Shown one piece after another: positions 17,707-26,284 of a stretch of 64,000 nucleotides of DNA. A program made the position numbers and the translations under genes. The DNA is from Curtobacterium salicis (GTDB lineage: Bacteria; Actinomycetota; Actinomycetes; Actinomycetales; Microbacteriaceae). The stretch lies in NCBI RefSeq assembly GCF_011759505.1, contig NZ_JAAOYO010000003.1, forward strand, positions 1 through 64,000. The letters are read 5' to 3'. Numbering within the stretch: position 1 is the stretch's first letter; every line of letters starts with the position of its first letter. The notes beneath the pieces were generated by a model. That model was not told the origin of the DNA and made no database searches. It was given only the letters and a program-made list of their open reading frames with translations.

Positions 17707-19026
17707 TCAGCCCGCCGAGCGCGCGACCAGGCGGTCGACCGCCGCGACCGGGATGCCCACCCAGGTGGGTCGGTTCCGCGCTTCGTAGACGACCTCGTAG
17801 ACCGCCTTGTCGAGCTCGAACGCGTCGAGCAACGCGCGGTGCACGCGCAGGTCGGACCCGCTGCCCCGCTCGTACCCGTCGAGGAACGCGTTGCGCGCCT
17901 CGTGCGCCCAGTCGCCCGTCTCCACGGGATCGTCCTCGTGCGCGAGTGCACCGGCGACGTAGTCGAAGGACCGGAGCATCCCGGCGACGTCCCGGAGTGC
18001 GACGTCCGGCCGCGACCGCTCCGGCATCGGGCGGAGCGGTTCGCCCTCGAAGTCGAGGAAGACCCATCCGCGGGGCTCGGGCGCCGACAGGACCTGACCC
18101 AGGTGCAGGTCGCCGTGGATGCGCTGCATGGTCGGCCACGGCACCGTGGCGGCCCGGTCGTACACGCGACCCACGGCGGCGGCGTGCTCGGCGACCTGCG
18201 GCACCTCGGCAGCCGCGGTGTCCAGCCGGCGACGCATCGTCGCGATCGCCTCGTCCACCTGGTCCGGACCGGACGTCGCCGTGGGCATCGCACCGGCGAG
18301 GACCGTGTGCACCTCGGCGAGCGCCGCACCGAGCCGGTCGGCGGCGCTGGCGAAGGACTCACCGTTCCGCGCGGCGGTCACGGCGACGCGCCAGGCGTCC
18401 TCGAGACCGGGCAGGAACTCCTGCGCGAAGGCGAGGTGGCCGTGTGCGGTGCCGCCGGGCTGGCCGGCGTCCGGCCACTCGCCGGTGAGGGCACCGAAGG
18501 TGCGCGGGACACGGACCGAGCCGGCGCTCGACAGCGCCCGCTGGGTGGTGACGTCCGGGTTCTCGCCGTCGTGCAGGACGCGGAAGACCTTGGTGATGAC
18601 CTGGCCGTTCTCGGCGGTGCCGCAGATCACGGACGTGTTCGACTGCTCACCGCTGAGGACGCGGGCGTCGGTGACCGGCCCGATGTGCTCGCCGTCGGCC
18701 TCGATCCGGCCGAGCAGCCACCGCGCGTAGGCGACGTCGTGCGGAGCGTCGTAGACCGCTGCGCCGTCGAGTTCGGTGACCAGGGCGTGCGCGAGCTCGG
18801 GGACCGCCGCCGGACGGACGGTGAGCGGCACCTGGTAGAGGACGGGACCGGTGGGGGCGTCGTCGAGGACGAAGAGGGTGCGGATCGTCGCGTCCGGGGT
18901 GGTGTCGGTCTGTTCGGCGACGACCCGGATGCTGGGGGTCCCGCCCTTGGCGGCGTACCACCGTTGGTCGGCCATCCAGCCGGCGACGGCGGTCTCGAAG
19001 GGGTCGGCGTGCACAGCGTCGGTCAT
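17707..19026 (-). CDS. Maltokinase-like phosphotransferase
   Basis: Probable maltokinase (Mak/Pep2), which makes maltose 1-phosphate for the GlgE alpha-glucan pathway. The 439 residues have the Mak-type N-terminal cap (WMADQRWYAAKGG, 17-29) and an APH-like kinase core with LSGEQSNTS (124-132), catalytic HGDLHLGQ (304-311) and metal-binding DFEGEP (325-330). No glgE, treS or glgB is in the window, so the partner enzymes must lie elsewhere; another sugar kinase role is possible. The ATG has TAGCGT 7 bases upstream and no ribosome site. Confidence 0.82.
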   Translation of the reverse strand: MTDAVHADPFETAVAGWMADQRWYAAKGGTPSIRVVAEQTDTTPDATIRTLFVLDDAPTGPVLYQVPLTVRPAAVPELAHALVTELDGAAVYDAPHDVAYARWLLGRIEADGEHIGPVTDARVLSGEQSNTSVICGTAENGQVITKVFRVLHDGENPDVTTQRALSSAGSVRVPRTFGALTGEWPDAGQPGGTAHGHLAFAQEFLPGLEDAWRVAVTAARNGESFASAADRLGAALAEVHTVLAGAMPTATSGPDQVDEAIATMRRRLDTAAAEVPQVAEHAAAVGRVYDRAATVPWPTMQRIHGDLHLGQVLSAPEPRGWVFLDFEGEPLRPMPERSRPDVALRDVAGMLRSFDYVAGALAHEDDPVETGDWAHEARNAFLDGYERGSGSDLRVHRALLDAFELDKAVYEVVYEARNRPTWVGIPVAAVDRLVARSAG

Positions 19027-19279: not shown

Positions 19280-20500
19280 TCAGGACGTGCACTTCGTGGT
19301 CGAGAACTCGTTCGAGCCGACCACGTCGTTGTCGCAGGACACCGTGTTGCCGAGGACCGGGCGGAAGGCGAATGCCACCCCGTCGCTGTTGCCCAGGTCC
19401 ACGGTGTTGCCGGAGAACGTGTTGTCCGTTCCCCACCCGTCGAGCAGTTCGTGTGTCTGGAACCCGTCGAGGATCGAGTGCACCCCGCGGTTCCCCGTGA
19501 CGCTCCAGCCGTTGCCCTTCACGTCCACCCAGGAGTCCGCGTGGTTCTGACCCTGCATGCCTGCGCCGTCGAAGGAGTTGTCCGACAGCACGCCGCCGGT
19601 GGTCCCCTCCTTGATGTCGACGTTCTCGGCCGCGGTGTCGGTGATCGTGTTCTCCGTCACCACGTTCCGGTCGCTGCGGTCCGGCTTGCAGTCGGAGACG
19701 TCGCACCAGTTGTTCTTCGACGAGCCGATGTAGATGCCCTCGCCGAACTTCGGCTTCCGGAGACCGGTGTCGGAGACGTGGTTGCCGCGCACGGTGTTGT
19801 CGCTGCTGTTGCCGCGGACGTGCATGGCCTCGTCGCCGATCTTCCGGACCGTGAGACCCTGCAGCACCGAGTGCTGGGTGTCGTCGAGCATCACGCCCTT
19901 CTGCCCGTTCTGCACGGTGAAGCCGGACAGCGTCCAGTACGCGCCGCCGTCGAGGTGCATGACGTACCCGTCGGTCGGGTCGCCGCCGTCGAGGACGGCA
20001 CCGCTCCCACCGCACAGGGCGATGGGCTTGCTCGCCGTGCCCGTCGCCGTTCCCTCGAAGTTCCCGTCGTAGGTGCCGTCAGCGAGGGCGATGACGTCAC
20101 CGGGCGCGGCGTCCTCGAGCGCGGACGTGAGCGCGTCAGCGGTGCTGACCCGTCGGGTCGGCGAGGAGCACGCGGCTGCCGGGGCAGCCGTGGCCGTCCC
20201 GGTGGAGCCGGCTGCCGTGCCGCTCGACGTCCCGCTGCCCTCGTCACCGCCCTTGCCGTCGGATCCGCCGTCGCCACCCAGGGTGCCGAGCTCCGGGGTG
20301 CGACTGGCACTCGGTGCCCGGCCGGGGTCGGCCGTCGCCGAGGAGCTCGGTGTCTGGGGGGCTGCGAGGGTCTCGGGGCCGCGCACGGCGGCACTGACAC
20401 CCCAGATCCCGCCGACGAGCACGGCTCCGGCCACGAGCCCCACGGCGCCGGACAGGATCTGCACGCGATGTCGTTCGAACAGGTTCGTCATCCGCGTCAC
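19280..20500 (-). CDS. Membrane-anchored right-handed beta-helix protein (small)
   Basis: Predicted extracytoplasmic polysaccharide-acting or -binding protein. The 406 residues comprise a short basic N-terminus, one membrane segment (about 13-38), a Ser/Thr/Gly/Pro-rich linker (about 45-108), then a parallel beta-helix with recurrent N-x-[VI]-x-x-N coils (ENTITDTAAENVDIKEG, NVVTEN, NTFSGNTVDLGNSDG). Such folds occur in polysaccharide lyases and epimerases, but no catalytic set is identifiable. The GTG start overlaps the upstream stop (GTGA); an ATG 9 bases in is an alternative. Four cysteines suggest disulphides in the secreted domain. Confidence 0.8.
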   Translation of the reverse strand: MTRMTNLFERHRVQILSGAVGLVAGAVLVGGIWGVSAAVRGPETLAAPQTPSSSATADPGRAPSASRTPELGTLGGDGGSDGKGGDEGSGTSSGTAAGSTGTATAAPAAACSSPTRRVSTADALTSALEDAAPGDVIALADGTYDGNFEGTATGTASKPIALCGGSGAVLDGGDPTDGYVMHLDGGAYWTLSGFTVQNGQKGVMLDDTQHSVLQGLTVRKIGDEAMHVRGNSSDNTVRGNHVSDTGLRKPKFGEGIYIGSSKNNWCDVSDCKPDRSDRNVVTENTITDTAAENVDIKEGTTGGVLSDNSFDGAGMQGQNHADSWVDVKGNGWSVTGNRGVHSILDGFQTHELLDGWGTDNTFSGNTVDLGNSDGVAFAFRPVLGNTVSCDNDVVGSNEFSTTKCTS

Positions 20501-22509
20501 CGGCCCGTCGCGGCGAGCGCCGCGTCGACGTCGGTGCCGTCGGACCGGGCGGCGTGGGCTGCGCGCCGGCTGCCGTCCTGGTCGGCCTGGAGCTGTCCGG
20601 CCTCGGCCATCGGCGACGACACCGGCGAGGCCGGCAGGCCCAGCGTGGTCGGGTCGATGACACCGCGGGTGAAGGAGGACAACGGCGCGAGCTTGGCGTA
20701 CGGGTGCTCACGGGCATCGCCGCGGCGACCGCGGATGACGCCACCGATGGCCGCGACCACGACGATCAGCAGCAGGATCAGCCACAGCACGGTGAGGGGC
20801 TGGAAGATGCCGCGGAGCGTCACGAGCAGCGGCTTGGTGGAGTGCCAGCCGGTCGTGGTGTTGCCGTGTTGAACGGCATCGTCGGAGCGTGCCAGGTCGA
20901 TCGCACTCGGTCCGCGCCCGGAGACGGAGTTGTCCGTCACGGTCGTGCCCTTCGATGCTCCGACCACCGTGACGCCGTGGGTCCGCGCGCCGGAGATCTC
21001 GTTGCCGTCGACGTCGGCGTCCGACGCACGGCTGTAGATCCCGATGTCGGCGCCCGCGATCGTGTTGTCGCTGACCTCGGAGGACCGGACACCGTCCAGC
21101 ACCGAGATGCCGTTCTGCAGCGAGCCCTTGATGACGTTGTTGCGCACGGTGGTCTTCACGGCGTCCTGACCGACGACGATGCCCATCCGGTTGCCGTCCA
21201 TCGTGGAGCCGCTCACCTTGACGTTCTCGCCACCGAGCACCTCGACACCGTACCGCCCGTTGTCGGACGCGGTGCTGTCGGTCAGCGAGTTGTTGCCGTA
21301 GTCACCCGTCGGCATGCCGACGGCGTTCGGACCGTCGGCGAGCGCTCCGCCGTTGAGGGTGATGCCGTTGCGGCCGTTGCGGTTCGCGGTCACCTGGCTG
21401 AGCACGATGCCGGTGGAGGCCCGGGTCATCTTGATCCCGTCCACCCCGTTGTCGTGCGAGTCGACCGAGGACAGCGTGCTGTTGGTCACGTAGCGGTGCA
21501 GGACGAGACCGTCGATGAGCGAGTTCTCGATGGTGGAGTCCGACATCACGACGCCGTCGGCGCTCGTGAGGAACAGGCCGTACGCGTTGCCGTCGAACTC
21601 GGTGTGCTGGATCTTCGCCGAGACGAAGCTGTAGGACCCGGCCGCCGTGCTCTCACCCGGGGTGGTCCCGTCGACGGCACCGGTCGGCAGCAGCGTGGTG
21701 CCGAAGACGTCCTTGGTCGTGCGCAGGGTCTTCGCCGCCTGGGTGCCGGAGGCTGCGTCGAGCGTGGACAGGTCGGTGCCGGTCAGGGACACGCCGCCGG
21801 TCGTGCCGCTCCAGAAGCCCAGGTCGCGGAACGACGCGTAGTTCAGGGTGGCGGTCCCGCCCTGGACGCGGACGTACGCGCGGCCGTCGGTGGTGTCCGT
21901 GTCGACCTTGCCGGCCTGCGGGTCCCACGAGTCGATGATGACGGGGGCCTTGCCGGAACCGGCGATCTGCAGCGCTCCGGCCTGTGTGACGATCGACACG
22001 AAGCCGCGGTCGTCGCTCTCCATGTGGATGTGCAGGCCGTCGGGGCTCGCGAGCTGCAGGGTCGCGCCGTTCTCCACGACGATGTTCTCGCTGAGCAGGT
22101 ACGACCCGTCGGGCTGCTTCACGAACGTCGACGGTGCGAGCTGCTTCAGGTCGTTGACGGTGTAGGCCGAGCCGCGTGCGACGAGCACCAGGGTGTAGGA
22201 GCTGCCCGTGGCGAGTCGGTACGGCTTCGTGGTCACGAGGCCGCTCCACCGGGCAGCCGAGGCCAGCGCCCGCACGTTGTAGATGCGTTCGTTCTCGGCG
22301 GCGACGAGCTTGGCCTCCTTGTTCGGGCTGCCGGGGTAGGCCTTGCCCGTGACGACGGTGGGCTGCCCGGCTGCCGGTGCCGTCGTCGCGGCCTGGGCTG
22401 CGGTGGGCAGCGACAGGACGCCGGCGCCGGCGAGCGTCAGGACGAGCGCGGACGCGGTCGCGATGCGGCGACGGCGGGTGGACGTGGTGCGGGTCGGGTC
22501 GGTGCTCAT
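20497..22509 (-). CDS. Secreted right-handed beta-helix protein with C-terminal membrane anchor (large)
   Basis: A 670-residue protein with an N-terminal signal (about 15-40, ending AAQAA), a domain with YLLSENIVVENGATLQLAS typical of NosD-like/epimerase-like helices, then many parallel beta-helix coils (about 290-550), a transmembrane helix (about 570-592) and a 78-residue cytoplasmic tail. Its ATG overlaps the GT2 stop (ATGA) and its own stop overlaps the next gene. The pairing with a processive glycosyltransferase recalls AlgG-type C5-epimerases, but the DPHD-type catalytic motif of alginate epimerases is not seen. Function is inferred from context only. Confidence 0.8.
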   Translation of the reverse strand: MSTDPTRTTSTRRRRIATASALVLTLAGAGVLSLPTAAQAATTAPAAGQPTVVTGKAYPGSPNKEAKLVAAENERIYNVRALASAARWSGLVTTKPYRLATGSSYTLVLVARGSAYTVNDLKQLAPSTFVKQPDGSYLLSENIVVENGATLQLASPDGLHIHMESDDRGFVSIVTQAGALQIAGSGKAPVIIDSWDPQAGKVDTDTTDGRAYVRVQGGTATLNYASFRDLGFWSGTTGGVSLTGTDLSTLDAASGTQAAKTLRTTKDVFGTTLLPTGAVDGTTPGESTAAGSYSFVSAKIQHTEFDGNAYGLFLTSADGVVMSDSTIENSLIDGLVLHRYVTNSTLSSVDSHDNGVDGIKMTRASTGIVLSQVTANRNGRNGITLNGGALADGPNAVGMPTGDYGNNSLTDSTASDNGRYGVEVLGGENVKVSGSTMDGNRMGIVVGQDAVKTTVRNNVIKGSLQNGISVLDGVRSSEVSDNTIAGADIGIYSRASDADVDGNEISGARTHGVTVVGASKGTTVTDNSVSGRGPSAIDLARSDDAVQHGNTTTGWHSTKPLLVTLRGIFQPLTVLWLILLLIVVVAAIGGVIRGRRGDAREHPYAKLAPLSSFTRGVIDPTTLGLPASPVSSPMAEAGQLQADQDGSRRAAHAARSDGTDVDAALAATGR

Positions 22510-24098
22510 GCTGCCGCCACCTCTCCGCCCTGGAGGCCCGCTGCCGGCTGCGACGCACGTTGCGTCCCCGACGTGGTGGCCGTTGCCGGCTCGGCCGCGT
22601 GGGACGCGGCCGCCGGAGCGGACTGGTCCGTGGTCGGCGCAGCCGTGGTGGCTGCGCCCGCAGGCGGTGCCGTCATCGCAGACGCTCCCGCCATCGCGGA
22701 CGCTCCAGCCATCGCCGGTGCTCCCGCCATCGCCGGTGCTCCTGCCATCGCGAAGGCCGGAGCCGCCGCCGGTGCCGATGCCGGTGCCGGTGCCGGTGCC
22801 GGGACGGTCTGCACGGCCGGACGGCTCGCCGGGCCGTCGAGGGTCGCCGCAGTCTGTCCGTCGCCGCCCATCTGGTCGGCGTGCCGGGTCAGCCAGCCCT
22901 GCTTGTTCATCGTGACGAACGAGAACACCTTGATCGGCAGCGCGATGACGATCACCACGATGGCCAGGATCGGCAGGACGAAGAGGTCGAGCGGGTGACG
23001 GCGCAGGTTCGAGAACCCGCGGACGGCACGACCGGCGAGCAGCCAGGCGATGGTGAACGCGGCACCGATGACGCTGAGCTCCAGGCGGCTGAACAGCAGG
23101 TACCACATGGTGATGCCCATGGTGACGGGGGTCAGGATGATCTGCAGGACGGTGATCTTCGTGACGAAGGGCACGCGCCAGATCCAGCCCTTGGCGATGG
23201 CCGTCAGGTAGGTCCGGTACGAGTTGCGGCTCCAGCGGATGCGCTGCTTGAAGAACGCCTTGCCGGTGGCCGGGAACATCGAGAGGGCCTTCGCGCTCTC
23301 CTGGTGCACGGTCTTGAAGCCCGAGGCCAGCACGAGCCAGGTCAGGCGGCCGTCGTCACCGGCGACGCAGCGGCGACCGAGGAAGAACTCGTTCTCCAGG
23401 TTGTCGAGCACGGGCAGCACGGCCGAGCGACGGTACGCGGCAGTGCGACCGGACAGGCACGGCACGGCACCGGCGGCGCCCATGGCGGGCACGTAGTTGA
23501 AGTACCGGAGGTTGACGAGCCAGTCGGCGATGATGCGCCAGATGCTCGAGTTGCGCTGGTAGACGTTCTGCTGCGTCCCGACCCCGCCGACGGTCGTGTC
23601 GACGAACGGCATCTGCACGTTCTCGAGCAGGCCCGGCTCCCAGCTGGTGTCGGAGTCGACGAGGACGACGACGTCGTACCGTGCGAGCCGGATGCCCTGA
23701 CCGAGGGCGCTGCGCTTGCCGACGTGGTGGAACAGGATCGGCTTCACGGTCGGGTCCCCGACGGCGACGATGCGCTGGTACGCCTCGGTGTCGGCGACGT
23801 CGAGCACGATGATGATCTCGTCGGGGTTCTGCGAGCGCCAGGAGTCGAGGCAGCGGAGCAGGATGTCGGGGTCTTCGTGGTAGCTCGGCACGACGACGGA
23901 GGTCGTCGTGCGGAAGCCGTTGACCACCGGCTTCGCCCGCGCCGACAGCACGACGCGGTAGAGCCACAGGGCCCACACGATCACACCGGCGATGCCGACG
24001 GGCACGTACTTGAGGGCTTCGTGGCCGAAGGCGACGAGCTGGTCGATGACGACCTGGGTCGATGTCTGGGATGCGGCGAGCGCGGCCAGGGTGTCCAT
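22506..24098 (-). CDS. Processive family 2 glycosyltransferase (polysaccharide synthase type)
   Basis: Membrane synthase that would polymerise a sugar nucleotide and export the chain. The 530 residues carry one N-terminal helix (about 33-52), the GT-A core with DSD (148-150), acceptor-site GDD (247-249) and QRIRW (285-289), which is the D,D,D,QxxRW pattern of cellulose, hyaluronan and alginate synthases, then about four membrane helices (310-395). The last 120 residues are Ala/Pro-rich, including AMAGAP/S repeats. No c-di-GMP PilZ domain is evident. The product polymer cannot be named. ATG follows an AAGGA site; first gene of a coupled three-gene operon. Confidence 0.87.
   Translation of the reverse strand: MDTLAALAASQTSTQVVIDQLVAFGHEALKYVPVGIAGVIVWALWLYRVVLSARAKPVVNGFRTTTSVVVPSYHEDPDILLRCLDSWRSQNPDEIIIVLDVADTEAYQRIVAVGDPTVKPILFHHVGKRSALGQGIRLARYDVVVLVDSDTSWEPGLLENVQMPFVDTTVGGVGTQQNVYQRNSSIWRIIADWLVNLRYFNYVPAMGAAGAVPCLSGRTAAYRRSAVLPVLDNLENEFFLGRRCVAGDDGRLTWLVLASGFKTVHQESAKALSMFPATGKAFFKQRIRWSRNSYRTYLTAIAKGWIWRVPFVTKITVLQIILTPVTMGITMWYLLFSRLELSVIGAAFTIAWLLAGRAVRGFSNLRRHPLDLFVLPILAIVVIVIALPIKVFSFVTMNKQGWLTRHADQMGGDGQTAATLDGPASRPAVQTVPAPAPAPASAPAAAPAFAMAGAPAMAGAPAMAGASAMAGASAMTAPPAGAATTAAPTTDQSAPAAASHAAEPATATTSGTQRASQPAAGLQGGEVAAA
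22680..22801 (-). repeat. Low-complexity tandem repeats in the GT2 tail
   Basis: About four 18-base units encode AMAGAP/AMAGAS hexapeptides, followed by a short GGTGCC-type run encoding alternating Ala-Pro. The whole tail is predicted to be disordered and on the cytoplasmic side; such repeats are prone to length change. Confidence 0.7.
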
Positions 24099-24403: not shown

Positions 24404-26284
24404 ATGAACGCGCACCTCGGCAACGACGCCGCACCGGCCCTCCCGCTCGCCAGTCGTCAGGACGGCGAGTACCCGCGCCCGCAGATGATGCGGTCCCACT
24501 GGGCGGACCTCGACGGCACCTGGTCCTTCCGCAACACCGGAGACGACCCCGCCTGGCGGGACGGCTTCCCGGACCCCCGCGACATCGTCGTGCCGTTCCC
24601 GCCGGAGTCGGTCGCCTCGGGCATCGACGAGCCGGACTTCCACCCGGTCGTCTGGTACTCACGGCTGATCACCGCGGCGGACCTGGCGGCCGCGGGGCAC
24701 GGCACGGACGCACCCCGCGTGCTGCTGCACTTCGGCGCGGTCGACCACCGAGCCCGCGTCTGGGTCGACGGCCGGTTCATCGGTGAGCACGAGGGCGGCC
24801 ACACCCCCTTCACCCTCGACGTGACCGAGGCACTCGGCACCGAGCCGAGCACCGACAGCCCCGCCGCGACCGACACGAGTCCCGGCGCCGGCTCGCACAC
24901 CCTCGTGGTCCGCGCCGAGGACGACCCCCACGACCTCACCCAGCCCCGCGGCAAGCAGGACTGGCACGAGCAGGCGCACGACATCTGGTACCGCCGCACG
25001 ACCGGGATCTGGCAGACCGTCTGGCTCGAGGCCGTCCCGACCACCGCGATCCGGGCCCTCCGCTGGACGAACCTCGACCACGAGACGATGCGCCTCACGG
25101 TCCGGCTGACCGGCGAGCACCCGGCGGGGACGCGCCTCCGGGTCGAGGCGACGTGGTCGGAACACGACGAGCACCTGGCGACGGTCGAGACCACCGTCGG
25201 CCCGACCGCCCACGAGTGCGAACTCGTCGTGCCGATCGCCCGGCAGGCGAACGGCCAGGCCGAGCAGGAGCTGCAGTGGAGCCCGGACGCACCGCACCTC
25301 GTCGACGCGGTCGTGACGCTGGTGGCGCCGGAAGGGGCCGCGGTCGATGCGGTCAGCTCCTACTTCGGGATCCGCACGACGCGCATCGGCGGCGGTCGGT
25401 TCCTGCTCAACGACCGCAGCATCGACGTCCGGAGCGTGCTCAACCAGGGCTACTGGCCGGACTCCCACCTGACGGCTCCGTCACGGCAGGCCCTCCGACG
25501 CGAGGTCGAACTCATCAAGGAGCTCGGGTTCAACGCCGCCCGGAACCACCAGAAGATCGAGGACCCGCGGTTCCTGTACTGGGCGGACCGGCTCGGCCTG
25601 ATGGTCTGGGGCGAGGCCCCGGGCGCCTACGCGTTCTCCCCCACCGCGGTGCAGCGGCTCATGCGCGAGTGGATGGACGCCGTGGAGCGCGACGCCTCGC
25701 ACCCGTCGATCGTGACGTGGGTGCCCGCGAACGAGAGCTGGGGCGTGCAGCACATCGCGACCGACCCGGCGCAGCAGGCCTACGCCCGGGCCCTGGCCGA
25801 CGTCACCCGGGCGCTCGACCCGACCCGGCCCGTCATCTCGAACGACGGCTGGGAGCACCCGGACTCCGACATCCTCTCGGTGCACGACTACGAGGGCGAG
25901 GGCGACCGCCTGGCGCGGACCTACGCCGACGACGCCGCACGCACGCGGCTCCTCGCGGGTCTCGGGCCGGCGGACCGGCTGATCCTGGTGGGCGGCGCGG
26001 TCGACCGGGGGCAGCCCGTGATGCTGACCGAGTTCGGCGGCGTGAACCACCAGCCGGGTGCCCAGCGCGACGACGCGTGGGGGTACACGACGGCCGCGGA
26101 CGGCGACGACTGGATCGCCCGCATCACCGCGCTGTACGACGCCGTGCGCGCCAGCTCGTTCCTGGCCGGCAGCTGCTGGACGCAGCTCACCGACACGATG
26201 CAGGAGACGAACGGGCTCCTCAACGCGGACCGCACCCCCAAGGAACCGATCGAGCGCATCCGCCGCGCGGTCCTCGGACGCTGA
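24404..26284 (+). CDS. Glycoside hydrolase family 2 (beta-glucuronidase/beta-galactosidase-like)
   Basis: Exo-acting retaining glycosidase. The 626 residues contain the GH2 sugar-binding jelly-roll (about 30-210), an immunoglobulin-like domain (about 215-325) and a TIM barrel. The acid/base glutamate is in PANESWG (Glu about 444) and the nucleophile in LTEFGG (Glu about 543), both intact. No signal peptide is visible, so it acts on imported oligosaccharide. The preferred ATG follows GGGG; an in-frame ATG at 24377 would add nine residues. The substrate (glucuronide, galactoside or mannoside) is not decided by these motifs. Confidence 0.88.
   Translation: MNAHLGNDAAPALPLASRQDGEYPRPQMMRSHWADLDGTWSFRNTGDDPAWRDGFPDPRDIVVPFPPESVASGIDEPDFHPVVWYSRLITAADLAAAGHGTDAPRVLLHFGAVDHRARVWVDGRFIGEHEGGHTPFTLDVTEALGTEPSTDSPAATDTSPGAGSHTLVVRAEDDPHDLTQPRGKQDWHEQAHDIWYRRTTGIWQTVWLEAVPTTAIRALRWTNLDHETMRLTVRLTGEHPAGTRLRVEATWSEHDEHLATVETTVGPTAHECELVVPIARQANGQAEQELQWSPDAPHLVDAVVTLVAPEGAAVDAVSSYFGIRTTRIGGGRFLLNDRSIDVRSVLNQGYWPDSHLTAPSRQALRREVELIKELGFNAARNHQKIEDPRFLYWADRLGLMVWGEAPGAYAFSPTAVQRLMREWMDAVERDASHPSIVTWVPANESWGVQHIATDPAQQAYARALADVTRALDPTRPVISNDGWEHPDSDILSVHDYEGEGDRLARTYADDAARTRLLAGLGPADRLILVGGAVDRGQPVMLTEFGGVNHQPGAQRDDAWGYTTAADGDDWIARITALYDAVRASSFLAGSCWTQLTDTMQETNGLLNADRTPKEPIERIRRAVLGR

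Follow-up and report, generated by a model that had tools for sequence, protein, structure and literature searches.

Described polyuronate systems and the Curtobacterium locus

Synthase-dependent polyuronates are known above all from the alginate of Pseudomonas and Azotobacter, whose operon comprises algD, alg8, alg44, algK, algE, algG, algX, algL and others; polymannuronate is made from GDP-mannuronate, not from UDP-glucuronate (UDP-GlcA). Hyaluronan synthases use UDP-GlcA and UDP-N-acetylglucosamine (UDP-GlcNAc) and export their own product, and enzymes of this type work without a PilZ domain or partner proteins. The window analysed here, a stretch of 64,000 nucleotides on contig C3 of the Curtobacterium salicis genome (G000, 3.49 Mb), contains three minus-strand genes placed head to tail, encoding a processive family 2 glycosyltransferase (GT2), P0001, and two beta-helix proteins, P0002 and P0003, assigned here to the AlgG superfamily and to the PL31-type polyuronate lyases, respectively (Table 1). 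It is likely that the three genes form an operon for making and tailoring a uronate-containing extracellular polymer, a reading based on the gene order and its conservation, the protein families, the conservation of catalytic residues and the linkage to a dehydrogenase gene.

As in the alginate operon, the cassette brings together a nucleotide-diphosphate (NDP)-sugar 6-dehydrogenase (in relatives of the window), a GT2 synthase, an AlgG-superfamily beta-helix protein and a lyase. Unlike in that operon, the synthase is hyaluronan-synthase-like, the dehydrogenases compared are of the UDP-glucose type, the lyase belongs to PL31, while AlgL is PL5, the epimerase-like protein carries a membrane anchor and an altered DPHD motif, and the hosts are Actinobacteria. 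No Alg44/PilZ, AlgX, AlgK or AlgE/outer-membrane pore was recognised by eye in the open reading frame lists of the flanks, in which no model search for them was made. As for AlgD, the GDP-mannose dehydrogenase, the cassette copies compared resemble UDP-glucose dehydrogenase (UGD), and none lies beside the window cassette. The locus is best explained as the logic of the alginate operon on a different chassis, in which the synthase exports its own product and both the epimerase-like protein and the lyase are tethered.

Among the matches listed, no account of this actinobacterial cassette was found by title or abstract in the open-access literature. In the available part of an operon survey, alginate operons belong for the most part to Pseudomonas and no actinobacterial one is mentioned (PMC7112194), and the available part of a review presents the brown-algal GDP-mannose dehydrogenase, mannuronan synthase and epimerase as proposed to come from an actinobacterium (PMC8307928). 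According to a 2024 paper, there is no strong support for an actinobacterial origin of the algal GDP-mannose dehydrogenase, and different donors seem to have supplied the algal epimerases and PL41 lyases. Both points, together with the PL31 lyase and the UDP-glucose-type dehydrogenase of the cassette, weigh against a simple algal link. The cassette (synthase, AlgG-superfamily protein, lyase and often dehydrogenase) nevertheless offers concrete, expressible genes for the question of algal origin; it would add a polyuronate system needing neither an outer membrane nor a copolymerase, and new gelling polymers as well as matched epimerase/lyase pairs might be obtained from it.

Conserved gene order and protein families

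The GT2 gene followed by the epimerase-like gene was found in 20 genomes. The conservation of the three-gene order in relatives, proposed as a check in an earlier note on this DNA, holds in 19 of them, with the lyase gene in place; in the twentieth, the contig ends after the epimerase-like gene. The cassette ranges from Curtobacterium to Streptomyces, Demequina, Quadrisphaera and two deeper lineages, and the recurrence of the order among distant Actinobacteria whose proteins share roughly 24-71% identity argues that it is not due to chance. Outside Curtobacterium, identity to the window proteins is 52-67% for the GT2, 28-42% for the epimerase-like protein and 39-50% for the lyase. Distances in the three protein families correlate with one another (0.92-0.98, a figure without a control), in agreement with co-inheritance.

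A scan of named genomes gave seven loci (Curtobacterium L009, four Streptomyces, a Quadrisphaera metagenome-assembled genome and Demequina), all seven having the three genes in order. L009 (Curtobacterium sp. MCPF17_052) and L033 are the same contig and were counted once, and a contig stretch of G034 is identical to L009 over 15,212 bases. Within Curtobacterium, P0003 has matches in 10 of 40 genomes, or nine after dropping G004 (a short match at E=6e-4 with an internal stop), and all nine carry the three genes in order. Across the phylum, the P0002 profile was matched in 3 of 396 genomes (the window's own, G052 and G269) and P0003 in 4 of 296 (the same three and G146), the full cassette being present in G052 and G269. 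In the genus of G146, taken as Streptomyces because the cassette GT2s there share 83-87% identity with the GT2 of the named locus L012, the epimerase-like gene is present in 3 of 199 genomes, two having all four genes and one having a contig end. The cassette is rare and scattered; its rarity is an upper-level estimate, since the scans scored just 3-6 candidates in each genome, with E cut-offs between 1e-12 and 1e-20. G052 has, besides its ordinary cassette (L050), a rearranged cluster (L051:11-6325, contig C402) with a beta-helix/PL31-like gene, a partial UGD gene, a split GT2 gene and a pair of AlgG-like genes, of which one has DPHT and the other lacks the catalytic His; with its partial dehydrogenase match, split GT2 and different order, it stands outside these counts.

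By sequence and predicted fold, P0001 is a hyaluronan-synthase-like GT2. Its nearest solved relatives are hyaluronan synthases, both with the single sequence (2.9e-19) and with a profile (1.8e-33), and they also make up the first 13 Foldseek matches of its structure model, a mannosyltransferase and the cellulose and chitin synthases ranking below them; titles of the matched PDB entries name bound UDP-GlcA and UDP-GlcNAc. The DSD, GDD and QRIRW motifs, described as intact in the earlier note, were confirmed at the residues given in Table 1. DSD, GDD and QxxRW, as well as a WxTR motif, are invariant in all 19 cassette GT2s, and the nine tabulated motif residues (D, S, D, G, D, D, Q, R and W) are identical in the 19 aligned members. 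Like the Chlorella virus hyaluronan synthase, Xenopus HAS1 and NodC, which are the top GT2 matches, P0001 has DSD, GDD and QxxRW; unlike the hyaluronan synthases and NodC, the cassette GT2 is encoded with an epimerase-like protein and a lyase. The absence of a PilZ domain and of partner proteins would be explained by the self-export of hyaluronan synthases. The C-terminal tail of P0001 is rich in Ala and Pro. The closest NCBIfam model is the NodC chitooligosaccharide synthase (TIGR04242), for which P0001, with 128.3 bits against a cut-off of 550, stays below the level of assignment.

P0003 has a single hydrophobic segment, at its N-terminus (residues 12-40, by hydropathy), which would serve as a membrane anchor, and it matches the alginate lyase PsAly of Paenibacillus sp. 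FPU-7 (6kfn) with 114 of 251 residues identical (45%, E=1.9e-57). PsAly is assigned to PL31 in the available text of PMC8286568, and the part of PMC6796002 at hand gives Tyr184 and Lys221 as its catalytic residues, K128, H154, R156, Y184, K221, D250 and K252 as seven invariant active-site residues, and E181, E216 and D219 as its first cation site; it describes the enzyme as endolytic with a preference for polymannuronate. P0003 keeps all ten of these residues, the seven of the active site and the three ligands. At the second cation site (Y244, D246 and Q276), Tyr244 is replaced by His, with D246 and Q276 kept, and P0003 also differs from PsAly at the positions of Asp188, Lys191 and Tyr195, in its N-terminal anchor and in being encoded with a synthase. 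K128, H154, R156, E181, Y184, E216, D219, K221 and K252 are kept in all 19 aligned cassette lyases and D250 in 18, the exception being L049, which also lacks D246 and Q276. Judging from its residues, P0003 is a PL31-type polyuronate lyase with its catalytic residues. The family PL41 (SjAly) was disfavoured for P0003, which has His154, Arg156, Asp250 and Lys252, residues that SjAly lacks in the available description (PMC6796002), no PL41 sequence having been part of the comparison. In G146 (L055:7398-8357, contig C12), a PL31-like gene stands by itself, with no cassette GT2 near it; its product has an apparent signal peptide, lacks an anchor and is probably a secreted degradative lyase.

P0002 has hydrophobic segments at residues 16-38 and 561-596 (hydropathy), so that the anchors proposed in the earlier note, C-terminal in P0002 and N-terminal in P0003, are borne out. 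A search with the single sequence gave generic beta-helix and NosD matches, with AlgG found weakly (0.19 among the NCBIfam models), and in the PDB AlgG appeared at 0.25-0.39, under chance antibody and kinase matches (0.009-0.24). The relation to AlgG was resolved only by a family profile (A1, built from 14 relatives), which matched nine distinct PDB sequences at E<=0.01: the best eight are all C5-epimerases (four AlgG constructs from 1.6e-9, 8xfq, 8ja4, AlgE4 and AlgE6) and the ninth is NosD. The AlphaFold model of P0002, made from 8 sequences, has a predicted local distance difference test (pLDDT) score of 72 overall, and most ten-residue blocks of the beta-helix are at least 90. Compared with known structures, this model fits AlgG best (Z 36.6, root-mean-square deviation 1.9 A over 346 residues), followed by AlgE4 and AlgE6 at Z 33, the best non-epimerase at 29.8 and NosD at 29.5. 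Thus, the structural comparison suggested in the earlier note points to an epimerase-like fold for P0002, while P0003 was placed in PL31 by sequence match.

In AlgG, according to the available part of PMC4444821, the His of the DPHD motif is the residue that probably takes up the proton; the carboxylate is neutralised by an arginine, and a water molecule is held in place by Tyr314. In P0002, His338 faces this His and Arg363 faces Arg345 of AlgG (numbered from D317, which the title of 4nk8 gives), and this AlgG-type His is kept in all 19 cassette members and the Arg in 18. Like AlgG (4nk6/4ozy), its best structural and profile match, P0002 therefore has the aligned catalytic His and Arg; unlike AlgG, it has changed DPHD and Tyr314 positions and a C-terminal membrane segment, and identity is about 15%. 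On sequence and model, P0002 is placed in the AlgG/AlgE superfamily with a changed active site and is not named AlgG; it may act as a C5-epimerase. The earlier note had regarded the beta-helix proteins as lacking known catalytic motifs, which does not apply to P0003, with its Tyr and Lys, and applies in part to P0002, whose DPHD is degenerate while His and Arg remain. It had also named a match to a characterised family with a different role as grounds for refutation; P0003 does belong to a characterised family, PL31, but the role is the one that had been guessed. Plasmids searched with P0002 by tblastn gave no match.

Precursor supply, proposed working and alternatives

A gene of the UDP-glucose/GDP-mannose dehydrogenase family lies directly after the lyase gene in 13 of the 19 genomes in which the next gene is visible (family called by Pfam for L012, L015 and L036 and by similarity for the rest). 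The L012 dehydrogenase matches UDP-glucose dehydrogenase at 1.5e-100 and GDP-mannose dehydrogenase at 5e-55, and that of L050 at 5.7e-114 and 9.4e-56, respectively; by sequence comparison, both are far closer to the former. Three NDP-sugar dehydrogenases of the window's genome pass the family cut-off, and one further, short match stays below it. Of these three, two share 55-61% identity with the cassette type and the third 26-30%, and one of the two cassette-like copies (L041) is closest to UDP-glucose dehydrogenase in the PDB. With the PL31 lyase, the AlgG-superfamily protein, the conserved order and the fourth-gene dehydrogenase, the parallel to synthase plus epimerase/lyase systems drawn in the earlier note gains support, while its motif-less version is not upheld. 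The same genome also has a second synthase operon (L040:7391-11968, contig C1, minus strand), in which genes for a GT2 (32% identical to P0001), a GH26-domain protein and a UGD-like enzyme overlap head to tail, a parallel layout of synthase, hydrolase and dehydrogenase. The GH26-domain protein has an apparent membrane segment at its N-terminus, and the neighbours of the operon resemble glnA/glnE genes by eye.

In the proposed operon, the three genes would be co-transcribed, and UDP-glucose would be converted to UDP-GlcA by a UGD-like enzyme, encoded by the fourth cassette gene in most relatives and by one of the two UGD-like genes located elsewhere in the genome in the subtype of the window. 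P0001 would build a uronate-containing chain, either from UDP-GlcA alone or from UDP-GlcA plus a second sugar, and push it out through its own membrane channel. The anchored P0002 may act as a C5-epimerase on the emerging chain, converting glucuronate (GlcA) to iduronate (IdoA) if the chain is glucuronan-like, and the anchored P0003 would trim, release or clear chains. The product is probably a matrix or capsule polymer.

Several observations weigh against this working. The DPHD position reads VLHR in P0002, and across the 19 cassettes it is VLHR in 15, VFHR in one, DAHS in one, DLHY in one and the full DPHD only in L013 (Quadrisphaera), whose epimerase-like protein matches AlgG at 2e-16. The position of AlgG Tyr314 is Asp in P0002 and Asp, His or Glu in 18 of 19, L013 again being the exception. 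P0002 reaches 10.3 bits with the NCBIfam AlgG model (NF038177, cut-off 700), so its epimerase activity is not assured; among five relatives the best score is 148.7 bits, obtained by the AlgG-like gene with DPHT of the rearranged G052 cluster, and two have no match at E<=0.01. The structure model of P0001 is of medium confidence (pLDDT 64). No dehydrogenase gene adjoins the cassette of the window, and the same holds for all five window-type Curtobacterium cassettes and for that of G269. The stand-alone secreted PL31 of G146 indicates that this family alone does not imply synthesis, and PsAly prefers polymannuronate, which derives from GDP-mannuronate and not from UDP-GlcA (PMC6796002, in part). 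With both the DPHD and the Tyr314 positions changed in 18 of 19 members, P0002 might have taken the place of an epimerase as a further lyase or as a tether that binds the polymer without catalysis, as the superfamily includes epimerase/lyases (8ja4, by its title, and AlgE7 in the available part of PMC4444821). This is possible but doubtful, since His (19 of 19) and Arg (18 of 19) are retained though identity outside Curtobacterium falls to the 28-42% given above, a retention that points to catalysis by the epimerase-like proteins. P0002 also matches the NosD Pfam model above its cut-off (67.8 against 23.6 bits), which would fit beta-helix proteins with no part in polymer tailoring, such as a NosD-like metallo-maturation partner or an adhesin, in an accidental cluster; in the NCBIfam NosD model, both proteins remain far under the cut-off (39.5 and 33.7 against 300 bits). 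Because AlgG ranks above NosD in fold and in the profile search, the gene order is kept over large distances and catalytic residues are conserved, such an unrelated role is highly improbable, and NosD function was set aside as the principal reading for P0002.

As to the polymer, UDP-GlcA is favoured by the dehydrogenase type, and unbroken runs of 1,4-linked uronates by the lyase family. A tentative suggestion is a glucuronan C5-epimerised towards L-iduronate, a new bacterial polymer that would be an 'alginate' made from UDP-GlcA by a self-exporting enzyme of the hyaluronan synthase type, with AlgG-like and PL31 enzymes tethered beside it. An alternating hyaluronan- or heparosan-like chain of GlcA and an N-acetylhexosamine, with a specialised epimerase and lyase, would suit the closeness of P0001 to the hyaluronan synthases, with their two UDP-sugars, and the UDP-GlcA supply implied by the linked UGD-like gene; it is nonetheless rather unlikely, as contiguous 1,4-linked uronates are what PL31 and the AlgG/AlgE families are known for, and PsAly is an endolytic enzyme that prefers polymannuronate (PMC6796002, in part). 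This same preference of PL31, as well as the AlgG superfamily relation, would be expected if P0001 were a mannuronan synthase fed with GDP-mannuronate and the product genuine alginate, which we consider improbable because the two cassette dehydrogenases compared are much closer to UDP-glucose dehydrogenase, two of the three NDP-sugar dehydrogenases of the window's genome resemble the cassette type, with L041 nearest to UDP-glucose dehydrogenase, and no Alg44, AlgX or AlgK was recognised by eye in the flanks (no model search for these was made).

Gene layout and neighbouring genes

The layout given in the earlier note, a GT2 gene followed by two beta-helix genes with 4-base overlaps, was reproduced from the minus-strand coordinates: the ATGA at the start of P0002 shares four bases with the GT2 stop, and P0003 begins at a GTGA, overlapping P0002 by four bases. 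Among 11 measured cassettes, the spacing from the GT2 gene to the next is -4 in nine and -11 and -1 in the other two, and the second junction ranges from -14 to +83, the exact overlaps being less constant than the gene order. A promoter and terminator scan returned 0 and 0, about as in shuffled sequences.

Table 1. Features of the three-gene cassette, with positions in the window, and loci with a fourth-gene dehydrogenase
Feature	Position	Strand	Remarks
P0001, processive GT2 synthase, hyaluronan-synthase/NodC-like	22506..24098	-	ATG start, 530 amino acids
DSD motif codons of P0001, residues 148-150	23649..23657	-	intact
GDD motif codons of P0001, residues 247-249	23352..23360	-	intact
QRIRW motif codons of P0001, residues 285-289	23232..23246	-	intact
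P0002, AlgG-superfamily C5-epimerase-like right-handed beta-helix protein (predicted)	20497..22509	-	ATG start, 670 amino acids
His338 of P0002, facing the catalytic His of AlgG DPHD	21496..21498	-	profile alignment
Arg363 of P0002, facing AlgG Arg345, 26 residues past the DPHD His	21421..21423	-	profile alignment
P0003, PL31-type (PsAly-like) polyuronate lyase (predicted)	19280..20500	-	GTG start, 406 amino acids
Tyr257 of P0003, equivalent of PsAly catalytic Tyr184	19730..19732	-	alignment
Lys297 of P0003, equivalent of PsAly catalytic Lys221	19610..19612	-	alignment
Loci with fourth-gene dehydrogenase			L010-L015, L036-L039, L050, L059, L061

The cassette lies between a maltokinase gene (17707-19026) and a gene for a GH2 family enzyme (about 24404-26284), the latter divergent from the cassette. 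Flanking genes were called with a codon model, and some flanking frames are still miscalled (e.g., L075:6704-9661). In all six other Curtobacterium genomes compared (four without the cassette and two with a four-gene cassette elsewhere), the maltokinase and GH2 genes lie close to each other without a cassette between them, with 0-2 other genes in the interval where gene calls are clear and no cassette gene by tblastn. Since the two neighbours stay together without the cassette, they were ruled out as members of the system, and the cassette is probably a discrete unit that was gained or lost as a whole. In other Curtobacterium genomes, variable genes fill the interval (L074-L079; L032:5979-7346), which looks like a variable spot.

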